Source: Beijerinckiaceae bacterium
GTDB lineage: Bacteria > Pseudomonadota > Alphaproteobacteria > Rhizobiales > Beijerinckiaceae
DNA: 64,000 nt
NCBI GenBank assembly: GCA_009773635.1
Contig: WSYC01000014.1
Location: 150,742 to 214,741 of the forward strand
Direction of reading: 5' to 3'
This document shows, one piece after another, positions 2,318 through 28,731 of this stretch. The translations under genes and the position numbers were made by a program. Under the pieces are notes generated by a model. The model worked only from the letters and a program-made list of their open reading frames with translations. It was not told the origin of the DNA and did no database searches. The stretch's first letter is position 1. Each line of letters begins with the position of its first letter.

Positions 2318-3873
2318 GGTGCTTCCAGCGCGGACGCCGATGATATCGCGGCTGTCATCCGCCGCCTCCGTAAAAACCGGATGATCAGGATGAGACGGAA
2401 AGCCAGCATCGCCACCAGCGCGGTCATCACCGATCCCAGGATCGCCCAGCGCAACAGCAGTGGGTCAAGCCGGATACCCTGCCGATCCAGAAGATAGAGT
2501 CCGCCAAGCCCCGCCAGCAGCACAAGCCGCGTGATCGCCAGCCGCCAGGAACGCAGCGCTTTCGGATGGATGCTGCGGAACAAAATCCGCTCCGCGGCGC
2601 CCGAAGCCGCCGAAAACACCAGGAACCCGATGGCCAGCACGCCGAAAAGCGGGAACAAAATCCCCCAGATAAATCCGAGGATGATCGGCCAACCCTGCGA
2701 CGCTGCAAGTGCAGGTGCGGCGAGGCCGGGATCGAAGCGGAGCGATCCCGCCGCCAACACCGCGCGCGCCGAGCCGGTCGGCGTGCAGGCCCGTGCTGCT
2801 GCCTGCGCATCGGACGGCGTAATCCCGCACACACTGAGCCAGCCGCGCAGGGTCTCGTCGAAGGCAAAGATCGGCCATTGAGCGGGCGCCGTGGCGGCAA
2901 GACGGCTCGCAATCCCGTCATCGAACAGCGCCTGCCCCGTCTTCATCATCGTTCCCAGGAGAATGGCGAGGAGAATGCCAACCCCGATGGACAGCACCCT
3001 GCCTGCAGCAGAACGGACAGCGGTTGCAGGTTGTTTTGCGATGAGCCCAAGCGCGGCTCCGAGCACAAGAGCCGGCCATTCCACCGCCAGAGCCAGCCCT
3101 CCCAGTGTTTCGGTGGTCAGGTTGATCCCGCTCTGGCCGAGAATCCCGCTCTGGCCGAGAATCCCGCTCTGGCCAAGCCGACCGAGAAGGTCTGCACTCA
3201 TCTGATCAAATACATCTCCGGCCAGAAACGCAGCGAAAGGAACCACCGCCGTGATGATGACCAGAACCAGCATGACCTTGGCGCACCGTACCAGCCCATG
3301 GAGGCCGCCAAGAACAAGAACCAGCGCCAGCAGCGAGACGACGAGACCGGCCGAGCGGGATCGCGTCGTGCCCGTCACCTCGGCCAGCCGGTCAATGATC
3401 GGCGGAAAAGCGTGGAAGACGAGGAGCCCTGCGGCCAGCATGACCGCCAGCATCGTGATGCTAAGCGCGCCCCGGGTTTCCTCGCCGGGATCACGATCCT
3501 GCCCGCCGGAGACCATCGCCCCGGCGAAATTCCGCCAGGGGTTGAACGGCAGGAGCCCGTAAGCGACACAGAAACCGGCCCCCAGCGCGATCGCTCCGGC
3601 CGCTGTCCGGCCGGGCGTCAGGCCAATTCCTGCCGCCACCAGCAAGAGCACGGCAACAAAGGCAACAAACCCGAGCGTGGCGCCGCGTTCGCTACCCGCC
3701 ATGAAGCGGGTCAGCCGGCTGGTCGTGCTCGCCAACGCCAGCGAGAGCGTGATCGCCACAAAAACGCCGATCACCCCCGCCGCCGCGAGCTGCGGGCCGA
3801 GACCAATGCGCTCGCCGAAAACCAGCAGCGCGAACCCGGCGATGGCAAGCGCGGTGACAAGCGCGCTGGTCAT
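2314..3873 (-). CDS. Polytopic membrane protein, possibly solute-symporter-like
   Basis: About 519 residues from the chosen ATG (MTSALVTALAIAGF); an upstream ATG at 3900 would add nine residues that do not look like a membrane start. Roughly 11-13 hydrophobic helices span the whole length, and no soluble domain is evident. The overall pattern, including the TGTTRSRSAGLVVS loop, is faintly reminiscent of sodium:solute symporters, but I see no diagnostic motif and do not assign a substrate. The protein carries three tandem LGQSGI repeats near residues 233-250, encoded by exact 18-bp DNA repeats. It overlaps the downstream methyltransferase by four bases. Confidence 0.6.
   Translation of the reverse strand: MTSALVTALAIAGFALLVFGERIGLGPQLAAAGVIGVFVAITLSLALASTTSRLTRFMAGSERGATLGFVAFVAVLLLVAAGIGLTPGRTAAGAIALGAGFCVAYGLLPFNPWRNFAGAMVSGGQDRDPGEETRGALSITMLAVMLAAGLLVFHAFPPIIDRLAEVTGTTRSRSAGLVVSLLALVLVLGGLHGLVRCAKVMLVLVIITAVVPFAAFLAGDVFDQMSADLLGRLGQSGILGQSGILGQSGINLTTETLGGLALAVEWPALVLGAALGLIAKQPATAVRSAAGRVLSIGVGILLAILLGTMMKTGQALFDDGIASRLAATAPAQWPIFAFDETLRGWLSVCGITPSDAQAAARACTPTGSARAVLAAGSLRFDPGLAAPALAASQGWPIILGFIWGILFPLFGVLAIGFLVFSAASGAAERILFRSIHPKALRSWRLAITRLVLLAGLGGLYLLDRQGIRLDPLLLRWAILGSVMTALVAMLAFRLILIIRFLRRRRMTAAISSASALEAP
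3125..3176. repeat. 18-bp in-frame tandem repeat (nearly 3 copies)
   Basis: The unit atcccgctctggccgaga occurs at 3125-3142 and 3143-3160, followed by a 16-base third copy with one change at 3161-3176. It lies in the membrane-protein gene and is a multiple of three, so it adds LGQSGI blocks without breaking the frame. Confidence 0.95.
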
Positions 3874-4044
3874 GGGACCCCCAGAGTGAAAAAAACACAA
3901 AATTCGTCGGGAACAACGCCCAGATGTCTAATAGACGAGCAAGTGTTCTTGCCAATAGGCATCATTGGCGTTCATCATCATAGCAAGCGCAAAAAAAGAC
4001 GCTGCTGCGCGGCAGATGAGGCAGCGTGAAAGCGGGGCGGAAAC

Positions 4045-4710
4045 ATGACAGCAAGTATGTCGGGTGTGGCTGATCGGGGAACCATCATCATCGCGGATGA
4101 CCATCCGCTGTTCAGGGGCGCTCTCAAGCAGGCGGTCAATGGCGTTTTCGGCGAGCTTACGGTGATCGAAGCCGGAACACTCGAGGAAGCCACAGCGGCC
4201 CTTTCAGGTGACTCCGACGTCGATCTCGTCCTGCTGGACCTCAAGATGCCCGGCGTCAGCGGTTTCTCCGGCCTCACTTTCCTGCGTTCGCAGCATCCGT
4301 CGGTGCCGGTGATTGTTGTTTCCGGCGTCGATGATGCCGCAACCATTCGCACGTGCATGGAATTTGGTGCATCCGGCTATATCCCGAAGACGACGCCGAT
4401 CGAGCAGATGAACGAGGCGGTGCGTGCCGTTCTCGCCGGCGGCAGCTGGACCCCGCCGCACATCCCGCTTGGCGAGGGCGCGGACAAGGAAACCAGCGCG
4501 CTGGTGCGGCGCCTCGCAAGCCTGACCCCGCAGCAGATGCGCGTGCTGACCATGCTGTCGGAGGGACTGCTCAACAAGCAGATCGCTTATGAGCTTTCGG
4601 TGTCGGAAGCTACGGTGAAAGCCCATGTCTCCGCCATTCTCATGAAGCTTGGCGTCGAAAGCCGGACGCAGGCCGTGATTGCCGCCGCGAAACTCGAAGT
4701 GCCGGGCTAA
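4045..4710 (+). CDS. NarL/FixJ-type LuxR response regulator
   Basis: A 221-residue two-domain regulator. The N-terminal receiver has the acidic pair at D18-D19 (IIIADDHPL), the phosphoacceptor D65 in VLLDLKMPG, and a conserved lysine in YIPKTT. After a linker, residues about 155-215 form a LuxR-type helix-turn-helix (LTPQQMRVLTMLSEGLLNKQIAYELSVSEATVKAHVS). It should be a phosphorylation-dependent transcription factor. No cognate kinase is adjacent, so its stimulus is unknown. An alternative start at M5 would shorten it by four residues. Confidence 0.88.
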   Translation: MTASMSGVADRGTIIIADDHPLFRGALKQAVNGVFGELTVIEAGTLEEATAALSGDSDVDLVLLDLKMPGVSGFSGLTFLRSQHPSVPVIVVSGVDDAATIRTCMEFGASGYIPKTTPIEQMNEAVRAVLAGGSWTPPHIPLGEGADKETSALVRRLASLTPQQMRVLTMLSEGLLNKQIAYELSVSEATVKAHVSAILMKLGVESRTQAVIAAAKLEVPG

Positions 4711-4735
4711 CAAGAAGTGCCTGGCTGAGCCGGCA

Positions 4736-5848
4736 TTACGCGGAAGCCTTCGCCCAGACGTCTGCCCCGCGGCCGACGAGGCCCGCGACATCCGCAACGT
4801 TTTCCCGCGCCATTGCGCGCAGAATGGCGCTCTTGATCTCGCCGATCAGGGCCGGGCCCTGATAGATCAGCGCGGAATAGAGCTGCACCAGACTCGCGCC
4901 GGCCGCGATCTTGGCAACGGCATCCTCGCCGCTTGAAATGCCGCCAACGCCGATCAGTGGAAATGCTCCGTCAACGCGCTGGAACGTCTTTGCGAGCACA
5001 ATGGTGGACGCCCGGAACAGCGGCTTGCCGGACAGCCCGCCCGCTTCGCGCGCGGTCGCCTGATCCTTCAGCGATGCAGGACGCGCGATTGTCGTGTTCG
5101 AGACGATCATCCCGTCGATCCCGCGGCTCAGCGCAACCGCGACGATATCGTCGAGCTGGATATCGTCGAGATCCGGGGCGATCTTGAGGAGGATGCGTGT
5201 CGCAAGGCCTTCTGCCGCCCGCGCCTCGAGAACCCGGGCGATCAGTTCGTCAAGGAAGGCGCGCCCCTGCAGATCCCGCAGGCCGGGTGTGTTGGGTGAG
5301 GAGATGTTGAGGGTCAGGAAATCGGCCAGTGGCCCGAGGCGACGCGTGAGATCGACGTAATCGGCGATCCGGTCGGAGCTGTCCTTGTTCGCCCCGAGGT
5401 TGACGCCAAGAACTCCTCTGGAAGCAAGGACACCCTTGGAGCCCTTCCCCCGGCCATCCCGCTGCATCAGCCGCGCCGCAACCGCCTCCATACCGTCGCT
5501 GTTGAGGCCGTAGCGGTTGATGACCGCACGATCCTCGCCCAGTCGGAAGACGCGTGGTCGCGGGTTGCCGGGCTGCGGGTGCTTCGTGACGCCGCCAACC
5601 TCGACGAACCCGAAGCCGAGCCGCATGAGGGCATCCGGCACGCGGGCGTTCTTGTCGAACCCAGCCGCGATGCCGACCGGATTGGCAAATTCGAGCCCGA
5701 AGGCTGTCACCGCCAGCCGGGGATCATCCGGTCCGCAGGCCGGCAGCGGCAATTTTTCGAGCGCGGCCACTGAAAGGTCATGCGCCTTCTCCGGGTCAAC
5801 CCGATGCAGCAGGGGCTGGAGCAGGGGAAAGAGCGAGCCGAACATCAT
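4736..5848 (-). CDS. pyrD: Dihydroorotate dehydrogenase (quinone), class 2
   Basis: A 370-residue class 2 PyrD, the membrane-associated flavoenzyme that oxidises dihydroorotate to orotate with quinone in pyrimidine synthesis. The N-terminal segment ([25 protein letters not shown]) is the membrane-docking helix pair of class 2 enzymes. FMN-site motifs include [30 protein letters not shown] and GLNSDG. The active-site serine region [14 protein letters not shown] and the glycine loop [13 protein letters not shown] are intact. The start overlaps the stop of the upstream DUF952 gene (ATGA). Confidence 0.95.
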
Positions 5849-25944: not shown

Positions 25945-26018
25945 TGGAGCGGGTGAAGGGAATCGAACCCTCGTATGCAGCTTGGGAAGCTGCCGTTCTA
26001 CCATTGAACTACACCCGC
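25945..26018 (-). tRNA. tRNA-Gly (anticodon CCC)
   Basis: On the minus strand the cloverleaf is complete: acceptor GCGGGTG/CACCCGC, D-arm GTTC-AATGGT-AGAAC, anticodon stem GCAGC/GCTGC with loop TTCCCAA, T-arm with TTCGATT, discriminator T, and an encoded CCA at 25945-25947. The anticodon CCC reads GGG glycine codons. It lies between prfC and the ion channel gene and points back at prfC. Confidence 0.96.
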
Positions 26019-26241
26019 ACGATGAGGCTCAATAGCCAATTTCTGTGCCCCGATGCAAGCCTTTCCGCACCACCCGGGCACGGAGGCGGGAGAGGCATGG
26101 GAGCGCCATGGGCTGATCCGCCGGCCATTTTCGCTGGCTTTCGCGCATAAGGCTTTGGAAAAGCGCCGGGATTCGCGCGAACCCCCTCAACGGCGTCACA
26201 TATCTGCACTAGGTTCTGCGTCTTCACGGGGGAAAACCATC

Positions 26242-27030
26242 ATGAACTGGCTGCGCCGAATTGTCGAAAATGAAAAAATCGAACGGTTTATCCTCGGCCT
26301 CATCATTCTCAATGCCATCACGCTGGGGCTCGAAACCAGCAAGGAGATCATGGCGACGCACGGTGCCCTGCTGCACCTCATTGATCAGATCCTGCTGGGC
26401 ATTTTCACCGCTGAGCTGCTTGCCCGGATTGTCGTGAAGCGCGGAGCCTTCTTCAAGGACCCCTGGAATGTCTTCGATGCCTTCGTGGTCGGGATCGCGC
26501 TGCTGCCGGATACGGGCTCGCTCTCGGTGCTCCGTGCCTTGCGCGTGCTGCGCGTGCTGCGCCTCATCACCGCCCTGCCCTCGCTCAAACGGGTCGTTTC
26601 CGGGCTGATCGGGGCCGTCCCCGGCATGGGCTCGATCATGCTGCTGATGGCGCTGATCTATTACGTCTTCGCGGTCATGGGCGCGAAGCTCTTCGGCGCG
26701 GATGCGCCCGAACAGTTCGGCACGCTTGGCATGAGCGCCTACACGCTGTTCCAGGTCATGACCTTCGATGACTGGTCCAACGGCGTCGTCAAGCCGCTGA
26801 TGGAAAAACACCCCTACGCCATCGCGTATTTCGTGATCTTCATCCTGCTCTCGGCGTTCATGATGCTGAACCTCTTCATCGGCGTCGTCGTTACCGCGCT
26901 CGATGACGAGAGGGCCGAAAGTTCGAAGCATCTGTTGCATGACAGCTCGGAAACCGCACAGATCCTCGCCGAGCTGCGCGAAATCCGCACCCGGCTCGAT
27001 GCTGCGGAAAAGACCGGACCTAGTCGATGA
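26242..27030 (+). CDS. One-domain voltage-gated cation channel (NaChBac/BacNav family)
   Basis: A 262-residue six-helix channel subunit from ATG 26242 (gggggaaaa upstream) that should assemble as a tetramer. S1-S3 are IERFILGLIILNAITLGLE, HLIDQILLGIFTAELLARI and WNVFDAFVVGIALL. The S4 sensor has four arginines at every third position (RALRVLRVLR). The pore loop reads VMTFDDWSNG, where sodium channels of the family have TLESWSM-like filters; S6 is AYFVIFILLSAFMMLNLFIGVVV. A charged C-terminal heptad helix (AQILAELREIRTRLDAAEK) matches the family's bundle. The DDWSN filter suggests calcium rather than sodium preference. Confidence 0.9.
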   Translation: MNWLRRIVENEKIERFILGLIILNAITLGLETSKEIMATHGALLHLIDQILLGIFTAELLARIVVKRGAFFKDPWNVFDAFVVGIALLPDTGSLSVLRALRVLRVLRLITALPSLKRVVSGLIGAVPGMGSIMLLMALIYYVFAVMGAKLFGADAPEQFGTLGMSAYTLFQVMTFDDWSNGVVKPLMEKHPYAIAYFVIFILLSAFMMLNLFIGVVVTALDDERAESSKHLLHDSSETAQILAELREIRTRLDAAEKTGPSR

Positions 27031-28135
27031 AGTGCTTGGACAGCTTCAGGCCCTGCGCCTGATAGTTGGACGAGAGGCCCGCGCCGTAGAGCTTCTCGGG
27101 CAGCATCGCCATGCGTTCGTAGATCAGCCGGCCGACGACCTGCCCGTCCTCGACGATGAAGGGCACATCGCGCGAGCGCACCTCCAGCACGGCGCGGGCT
27201 CCGGCGCCGCCGGCGGAAGCATTGCCGAAGCCGGGATCGAAGAAGCCGGCGTAATGCACGCGGAATTCGCCCATCATCGGGTCAAACGGCACCATCTCGG
27301 CCGCATGGTCCGGCGGCACATGCACGGCTTCCTTGGAGGCGAGGATGTAGAATTCGTTGGGGTCGAGCACCAGCTCGCGGCGGCCGGACAGATGGATCGG
27401 CTCCCAGTATTCCGCCGTGCGATACGCCCCGACGCGGTCGACATCGACGAGCCCGGTGTGTCGCTTGCCGCGATAGCCGACGAGCCCCTGCCCGTCGAAA
27501 CCGGCGAGATCCACCGAGAGCACGATACCATCCTGAATGAGCGCGGCATCGCGATCCACCAGTCCCGCGCGCGCGTGCAGTGCCTCCAGCGCCGCGTCCG
27601 AAATCCGGGCATGGCCACGCCGGAAGCGGATCTGCGACAGCCGGCTTCCCGTCCGGACCAACACCGGGAAGGTGCGCGGCGAGATTTCCGCGAAGATCGG
27701 CCCGGTATAGCCGGCTGAAATCGTATCGAAGGCCGAAGCGCCGTTTGTGATCACACGGGTGAAGACATCAAGCCGCCCGGTGGAACTCTTGGGGTTTGCG
27801 GTCGCCGAGACGTCCGCCGGCAGTGCAAGGCCTTCGAGAATTTCCGCGACATAGACGCAGCCGGTTTCCAGCACCGCGCCGTGGCTGAGGTCGATTTCGT
27901 GCAGGGAATAGGCGGCGATCCGCTCGGCGACGCTGCCGCCCTGCCCCGGCAGGAAGCTTGCGCGCATGCGCCAGCAGCGCTTTCCGAGGCGGAGATCGAG
28001 GCTCGCCGGCTGCACCTGCCCGATGGCAAGCGGCATCGGCAGCGCGATCGCCCGCTCGGACACGAGGGCCTCGATCATCGCATCGGAGAAAATTCCGGCT
28101 TCGGCTGCCTGCGCGCTCACATCGGTTACTTTCAC
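27020..28135 (-). CDS. dcd: 2'-Deoxycytidine 5'-triphosphate deaminase (long form)
   Basis: About 371 residues from GTG 28135 (VKVTDVSAQA); the frame runs further to 28462 but that part reads across the divergent apaG gene. This is the long alphaproteobacterial dCTP deaminase in which the dUTPase-like fold is duplicated. Motifs are GQVQPASLDLRLG, ATANPKSSTGRLDVFTRVI and SAGYTGPIFAEISPRTFPVLVRTG in the first half, and GFFDPGFGNASAGGAGARAVLEVRSRDVPFIVEDGQVVGRL in the second. It supplies dUTP for thymidylate synthesis. The start is moderately sure; ATG 28303 is an alternative. Confidence 0.88.
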   Translation of the reverse strand: MKVTDVSAQAAEAGIFSDAMIEALVSERAIALPMPLAIGQVQPASLDLRLGKRCWRMRASFLPGQGGSVAERIAAYSLHEIDLSHGAVLETGCVYVAEILEGLALPADVSATANPKSSTGRLDVFTRVITNGASAFDTISAGYTGPIFAEISPRTFPVLVRTGSRLSQIRFRRGHARISDAALEALHARAGLVDRDAALIQDGIVLSVDLAGFDGQGLVGYRGKRHTGLVDVDRVGAYRTAEYWEPIHLSGRRELVLDPNEFYILASKEAVHVPPDHAAEMVPFDPMMGEFRVHYAGFFDPGFGNASAGGAGARAVLEVRSRDVPFIVEDGQVVGRLIYERMAMLPEKLYGAGLSSNYQAQGLKLSKHFID

Positions 28136-28338
28136 ATCCGGCTTGGGCCGTCTTTCCGGCCTCTCGATCGCTACAGGAGGCTCCCGATCGAGGCAACCGG
28201 CGAGACCGCGCCGGCGCTTGTTCCCCACATTTTCTTGATTTTCGGGTTGCGCGAAGGCCTGCCACAACCGGCAATTGACGCCTTCGCGCCGCGAAGGCAT
28301 GCTCCCGTCCGCAACCACAACAAGAAACGGGTTCTGGC

Positions 28339-28731
28339 ATGTACCGCGCGGTGACGGAGGGCATTGAGGTGACCGTCGAGCCCGAGTATGCGCCCGAGCG
28401 CTCGCGCCCGGAAATCGGCGAGTTCTTCTGGGTCTATGCTGTCGAAATCCGCAATCTTTCAACCGAAACGGTGCAGTTGCGCGCCCGCCACTGGGAAATC
28501 ACCGACGGCGGCGGCAAGACGCAGCATGTGCGCGGCCTCGGGGTCATCGGCGAACAGCCGATCATCAGGCCGGGCGAAATGTTCCGCTATTCCTCCGGCT
28601 GCCCGCTGACCTCGGGTCACGGGATCATGGTCGGCAGCTACGAGATGGTTGCGGCGGATGGCAAGCGCTTCGAGGTGGCCATTCCCGCCTTCTCGCTCGA
28701 CGCGCCGTTCGAGCCGCGCACCGTCAACTGA
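28339..28731 (+). CDS. apaG: ApaG (Co2+/Mg2+ efflux-associated) protein
   Basis: A 130-residue beta-sandwich protein with the usual ApaG pattern: VTVEPEYAPERSRP, FFWVYAVEIRNLSTETVQLRARHWEITDGGGKTQHVRGLGVIGEQPIIRPGEMFRYSSGCPL and GSYEMVAADGKRFEVAIPAFSLD. The family resembles fibronectin type III folds and has been linked to cobalt/magnesium tolerance; its exact role is unsettled. It converges on hslO with only three bases between the stops. Confidence 0.94.
   Translation: MYRAVTEGIEVTVEPEYAPERSRPEIGEFFWVYAVEIRNLSTETVQLRARHWEITDGGGKTQHVRGLGVIGEQPIIRPGEMFRYSSGCPLTSGHGIMVGSYEMVAADGKRFEVAIPAFSLDAPFEPRTVN

Follow-up and report, generated by a model that had tools for sequence, protein, structure and literature searches.

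The window, a 64,000-nucleotide stretch of a Beijerinckiaceae contig (WSYC01000014.1), holds a voltage-gated cation channel gene flanked upstream by a tRNA-Gly gene and at its 3' end by a convergent open reading frame for dCTP deaminase (dcd), the true start of which probably lies inside that frame (Table 1). The start codon of the channel gene fits, with a GGGGGA placed suitably ahead of it and the nearest homologues aligning from residue 1. A Pfam profile search matched PF00520 (Ion_trans) to channel residues 14-226 (E 1.1e-47), and the genome to which the window belongs has one match to the channel at E 0.001 or better. Comparison with five relatives over 226 codons gave dN/dS values of ~0.16-0.26 (dS 0.69-1.08, dN 0.12-0.21); the gene is under purifying selection and its protein is maintained. 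The antisense strand of the gene (26242-27030, minus) is open across all 263 codons, and antisense open frames lie opposite the channel gene in relatives too, probably as a codon-bias effect of high G+C.

Table 1. Features in the window; coordinates are window positions and residues are those of the channel protein.
Feature	Position	Strand	Description and basis
tRNA-Gly (ccc)	25945..26018	-	Upstream neighbour of the channel gene
GGGGGA, ribosome-binding-site-like	26228..26233	+	8 bases 5' of the channel ATG; by eye
Voltage-gated cation channel gene	26242..27030	+	262 aa (P0001), NavAb-like, 6 transmembrane segments; ORF translation, Pfam, alignment, model, Foldseek
S1-S3 of voltage sensor	26272..26499	+	Model helices 11-31, 34-72, 74-86
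S4, gating arginines R98, R101, R104, R107	26515..26574	+	Model helix 92-111
Pore helix P1	26725..26760	+	Residues 162-173; model
Selectivity filter TFDDWSN	26761..26781	+	Residues 174-180; alignment and clade conservation
Pore helix P2	26773..26808	+	Residues 178-189; model
S6 and cytoplasmic extension	26818..26934	+	Residues 193-231; model
C-terminal helix	26944..27015	+	Residues 235-258; model
dCTP deaminase (dcd) ORF	27020..28462	-	DCD domains from residue 122; convergent, overlaps the channel end by 11 bases
ORF, 528 aa	2314-3900	-	Picked by composition; no Pfam match at 1e-5; may not be a gene
ORF, 458 aa	33119-34495	+	Picked by composition; no Pfam match at 1e-5; may not be a gene

An AlphaFold2 model built from 22 window and locus sequences (mean pLDDT 82.9, pTM 0.57) shows the helices in the expected order, namely voltage sensor, P1, filter loop, P2, S6 and C-terminal helix. 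The top Foldseek match to this model is 5klb (title CavAb), followed by NavAb structures. Among single-domain solved chains the NavAb/CavAb type leads at ~1e-73 (6ke5, 5klg, 6juh), and long eukaryotic T-type chains outscore these only as a sum over several matched stretches. The protein is a member of the NavAb-like BacNav fold family: it has a single six-segment Ion_trans domain with S1-S6 and the P1/P2 pore helices, four S4 arginines and acidic partners for them in the voltage sensor. The BacNav layout and four arginines proposed in the initial annotation are therefore borne out by the PF00520 match and by R98, R101, R104 and R107, which are invariant both in our 22-row alignment and in all 33 rows of a larger alignment that carry a T-F-D-D-W filter (TFDDW rows). 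Equally invariant in those 33 rows are N24, E31, D48, E58, R62 and D79 of S1-S3. The C-terminal helix was modelled with mean confidence of 59, 84 and 71 across ten-residue blocks, and is presumably the coiled coil usual in the NavAb-like family.

The filter sets this channel apart from sodium-selective relatives. The alignment of the window channel with PDB chain 6ke5, which we take to be of the CavAb type, has no gap; identity is 114 of 231 residues (49%) overall and 28 of 38 in the P1-filter-P2 region, and TFDDWSN is paired with TLDDWSN. Three residues (D, D and N) separate TLDDWSN from TLESWSM, and the window channel has all three, at 177, 178 and 181 in NavAb numbering (offset +1). Asp thus stands at the high-field and +1 positions, a filter chemistry reported as Ca2+-preferring; the TLESW-type Na+ filter of NavAb-like BacNavs is absent, as is the Gly at filter position 4 that is a trait of CavMr, the window channel having Asp there. 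The reading of the filter as TFDDWSN in the initial annotation proved correct, as did its TLDDWSN for CavAb, which is what 6ke5 and 6juh (the latter titled CavAb) show, while some papers give TLDDWSD (PMC10120453, PMC4972137, PMC7764494). The pore alignment with a CavAb-type chain that it had proposed as a check puts both aspartates in the filter. Its likeness to CavAb holds in part: the two aspartates and the N are present, but position 2 is F, not L, and the N is not conserved in the clade described below. A chance motif or a sequencing slip was considered and ruled out, because the motif occupies the filter position in a gapless alignment, because none of the 33 non-identical clade rows departs from T-F-D-D-W, and because between the window and five relatives the aspartate codons show synonymous differences only.

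We placed the channel in a tree of 111 non-identical sequences (132 before removal of identical copies) with seven filter columns masked. MAFFT had misaligned the filter in 18 of the 111 rows (nine TG.., eight TFEDWTD and one TLEGWPD; none in the TFDDW clade), so that their own filter was not exactly masked, and 80 rows lacking a filter, at least in part antisense-translation matches, were left out before counts were made. All 33 TFDDW rows form one clade (100/99) and have their filter by common descent; the grouping is not a product of the filter itself, since the clade stands with the filter columns masked. Position 7 is N in 19 of these rows and G in 14, with several N/G changes inside the clade, so the N matters least of the three residues matching CavAb. 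TLESWSM is the commonest filter outside the clade (45 of the 111 rows), and the window channel groups with TLESWSM channels, not with the acidic-filter Marinomonas group, which as the outgroup we had set split off at 100/100. The nearest group comprises six TLEGWVD rows (99/94), the probable sister of the TFDDW clade by sequence, although the join is uncertain at 88/67. Deep branches of this tree, which has no NaChBac, NavPp or CavMr among its rows, are poorly supported. The filter-masked topology and the prevalence of TLESWSM elsewhere favour a Na+-type ancestor, with the TFDDW clade acquiring its aspartate pair once, a direction of change that we infer. Outside the filter, K184, L186, K189, L220 and D221 are common to 33 of 33 TFDDW rows; TLESWSM rows at these places mostly have R, V, other residues, M and Q, respectively.

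Other unusual filters were met along the way. Two Hyphomicrobiales loci each hold two tandem channel genes, all with TLEGWVD (L013, ~3100-4777; L023, ~3050-4801), and have dcd 0.2-1.3 kb further on; two more (L027, L029) have one TLEGWVD channel each, and dcd no more than 0.8 kb away. The TLEGWVD channels of these four loci are candidate native Ca2+ channels. TLDGWSS channels of one family (L100-L102, f28) group together at 100/100, close to the TFDDW and TLEGWVD rows in the tree, and at another locus (L124, genome G357) neighbouring channel genes on the same strand carry TLESWSM and TLEGWSD, their filters ~1.4 kb apart. Another Asp-Asp filter, separate from the first and reading TGDDWGN or TGDDWGT, occurs outside the phylum in Streptosporangiaceae (L030, L031, L032, L055 and L037, from Nonomuraea, [Actinomadura] parvosata and Thermoactinospora, found in the species-wide scan below), where it forms one clade (100/100).

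When six short window-protein stretches, one with the filter, were used as patterns against a collection of 84,980 species, each represented by one genome, 54 loci were returned. Exactly TFDDWSN is present in 16 of the 54, whose titles name Hyphomicrobiales or its families or genera, one reading only 'proteobacterium'. The R. calidifontis homologue is 80% identical to the window channel. Among near genomes, 36 of 61 (own included) match the channel at E 0.001 or better; G058, G032, G056 and G020 are weak matches among them (E 5.9e-7 to 7.6e-4) and may be other channels. The channel occurs in 14 of 17 genomes of the window's genus, seven with TFDDWSN and seven with TFDDWSG, and the other three of the 17 gave no channel match. 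The channel of genome G100 has TFDDWAG. In an order sample the loop pattern was found in 132 of 397 genomes; by eye, 14 of these 132 have TFDDW, from two families, and TLESW is the commonest filter. The class sample gave the own genome as the only filter match (1 of 385), and the phylum sample two of 398, both from the own genus. A wide spread of the TFDDW filter was thus not seen in these three sets, which are samples searched with patterns requiring Met-Thr before the filter and, for order and class, also Phe-Gln further up; TLEGWVD rows with LFT were missed on account of the Met-Thr.

One alternative is that the channel is an ordinary BacNav, selective for Na+, and that its filter changed by neutral drift. 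The remainder of the protein is typical of a BacNav and TLESW prevails among the order members that match the loop pattern, as this reading would have it. However, positions 2, 3 and 4 all differ from TLESWSM and were then fixed through 33 divergent rows, and changes at positions 3 and 4 are reported to have altered selectivity in the channels tested (PMC10120453, PMC7764494, PMC4225499). We regard drift as very improbable.

The gene neighbourhood was considered as a guide to role, but prfC, tRNA-Gly, dcd, apaG, hslO, argF and an aminotransferase gene (argD-like) say nothing about Ca2+. A convergent dcd lies beside the channel in 13 of the 14 channel-bearing genomes of the window's genus. Such a dcd adjoins 6 of 6 TLEGWVD rows and 4 of the 44 TLESWSM rows that have flanks of at least 600 bases, and it was found beside 0 of 19 TFDDW rows outside the genus; these counts are lower bounds, since many flanks are only ~1.2-1.5 kb long. 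The adjacency may reflect a single old locus in part of the family; for function it offers no clue. Elsewhere in the genome to which the window belongs we found 13 chemoreceptor domains over the cut-off, three flagellin matches and one EF-hand protein, and a link of the channel to swimming or chemotaxis is possible. Record titles of some channel bearers name ponds and Lac Pavin, presumably a lake. Some bearers come from fresh water, and it is a guess that low Na+ favours the filter switch.

The residues and their setting point to a native NavAb-like channel with a CavAb-type filter that would assemble as a homotetramer, open on depolarisation and preferentially let Ca2+ in. By analogy with characterised relatives we consider this reading likely as a whole, and judge the Ca2+ preference itself probable to much the same degree. 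Four subunits would set D176 (E177 in NavAb) around the pore as the high-field-strength ring; D177 (S178 in NavAb) would form another ring, bringing the two to about -8 charges. As in CavAb, hydrated Ca2+ ions would then bind one after another, each knocking on the one ahead, with Na+ excluded. A plausible role would be the conversion of voltage into a Ca2+ signal in a cell that has flagellin and chemoreceptor genes.

Several points support the natural Ca2+-preferring channel suggested in the initial annotation. First, aspartates at these filter places are described as shifting NavAb and NaChBac towards Ca2+ (PMC10120453, PMC4972137, PMC7764494, PMC4225499, PMC10761118); CavAb is reported to reach a PCa/PNa of ~400 after three substitutions (PMC10761118), and the S-to-D change at the beacon (+1) position is said to be enough for a ~100-fold gain in Ca2+ relative to Na+ permeability in bacterial Nav channels (PMC10120453). 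Second, a filter charge of -8 to -12 is reported to accompany Ca2+ selectivity (PMC7764494). Third, Phe at filter position 2 is noted in some natural channels, and the account of NavAb L176F describes no current reduction by Ca2+ (PMC10349818), so that F at this position appears tolerated. Lastly, genome G135 encodes two channels on separate contigs, one with TLESWSM (L116) and one with TFDDWSG (L117), as expected if the two do different jobs. Of the outcomes on record that of CavAb is the best guide, because NavAb is the solved structure nearest in backbone to the window channel.

The main doubt is that Ca2+ preference came out weaker where filters of this kind sat in other backbones. NsvBa with LDDWADG is reported to have a PCa/PNa of only ~30 with measurable monovalent permeability (PMC4225499), and a native TLDSWGS filter is described as non-selective (PMC7041947, PMC4225499). 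Position 7 also counts against the Ca2+ reading, being a neutral N or G that drifts within the clade where several papers' CavAb filter has a third aspartate. A search of the own genome, moreover, found no protein of the Na+/Ca2+ exchanger family (PF01699) as an exit route for Ca2+, which we likewise count against it. The NsvBa and TLDSWGS cases and the uncharged, drifting position 7 would suit a weakly selective channel passing both divalent and monovalent cations with a mild lean to Ca2+. We think this unlikely: all 33 rows keep D at position 4, and it was in NavAb, the nearest backbone among solved structures, that this filter type gave the ~400, the highest PCa/PNa among the bacterial-channel values compared (PMC10761118).

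The same doubt takes a sharper form in NavPp, the acidic filter of which has one aspartate more than that of CavMr and which is reported to pass more Na+ than Ca2+ and to be blocked by Ca2+ (PMC7041947; commentary in PMC7041941). Similarly, NavSp with LDDWSD is described as having gained Ca2+ affinity while still preferring Na+ over K+ (PMC4972137). By such precedents the window channel would conduct Na+ but be blocked by Ca2+ bound at its aspartates, and so work only where Ca2+ is scarce. NavPp, however, falls in the AnclNav branch of its authors' tree (PMC7041947), whereas NavAb-like channels are the nearest to the window channel; CavAb does conduct Ca2+ (PMC10761118) and the L176F result shows no block. 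A channel of this kind is, in our judgement, quite improbable, and preferential entry of Ca2+ is the interpretation we carry forward.

CatSper1, the sperm Ca2+ channel protein, is a eukaryotic subunit of a mixed assembly. By description it resembles the window channel in being one-domain with Asp at the high-field and +1 positions (PMC10120453). Closer at hand is CavAb, engineered from NavAb of Arcobacter butzleri (6juh, 5klb), which has in common with the window channel the fold, the two filter aspartates and the N at position 7; CavAb is man-made and has L at position 2, whereas the window channel is natural, has F there and belongs to a clade alternating N and G at position 7. NavAb-like BacNav sodium channels (TLESWSM) are of the same family, with the same S4 and most voltage-sensor residues, but differ at filter positions 2, 3, 4 and 7. 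CavMr of Meiothermus ruber, reported in 2020 as a native prokaryotic Ca2+ channel, is likewise native, bacterial and single-domain and departs from TLESW in its filter, and its Ca2+ selectivity was measured; its filter is TLEGWVD and its mechanism is described as acting via Gly4 (PMC7041947), in contrast to the Asp pair of the window channel. That same filter is carried by the probable sister rows of the TFDDW clade, with CavMr itself outside our tree. Shimomura et al. also found candidates of a more acidic filter type, which belong to a separate AnclNav branch (PMC7041947), whereas the Asp-Asp filter of the window sits in a protein nearest NavAb. As CavMr is already known, what is new is that a native channel of the NavAb-like kind has this type of filter, not the idea of a bacterial Ca2+ channel. 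In the text of open-licence papers we found none naming a native bacterial TFDDWS filter, though a sequence table may mention one.

For the family as a whole we postulate, tentatively and a little short of an even call, that in Hyphomicrobiales an ancestral voltage-gated Na+ channel gave rise to Ca2+ channels by two natural filter solutions in sister lineages: the CavAb-type TFDDW in Rhabdaerophilum/Phreatobacter and the TLEGWVD of CavMr in Xanthobacteraceae and relatives. Part of these lineages would share dcd as a neighbour, at least one genome would hold both Na+- and Ca2+-type channels, and TGDDWGN would have arisen separately in Streptosporangiaceae. If true, motile bacteria would have Ca2+ entry triggered by voltage, and the lineages would form a natural series showing how selectivity switches. 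The aspartate-rich filter of CavAb has been described as quite different from those of mammalian Cavs (PMC7041947). CavAb is an artificial laboratory model of Ca2+ choice, and a natural clade with a near-identical filter would show the solution to be used in nature. The TFDDW clade would supply homotetrameric Ca2+ channels for structural work, and close relatives with a Na+-type and two Ca2+-type filters would allow selectivity switching to be tested directly. For bacterial physiology, TFDDW channels would add a case of voltage-driven Ca2+ entry.
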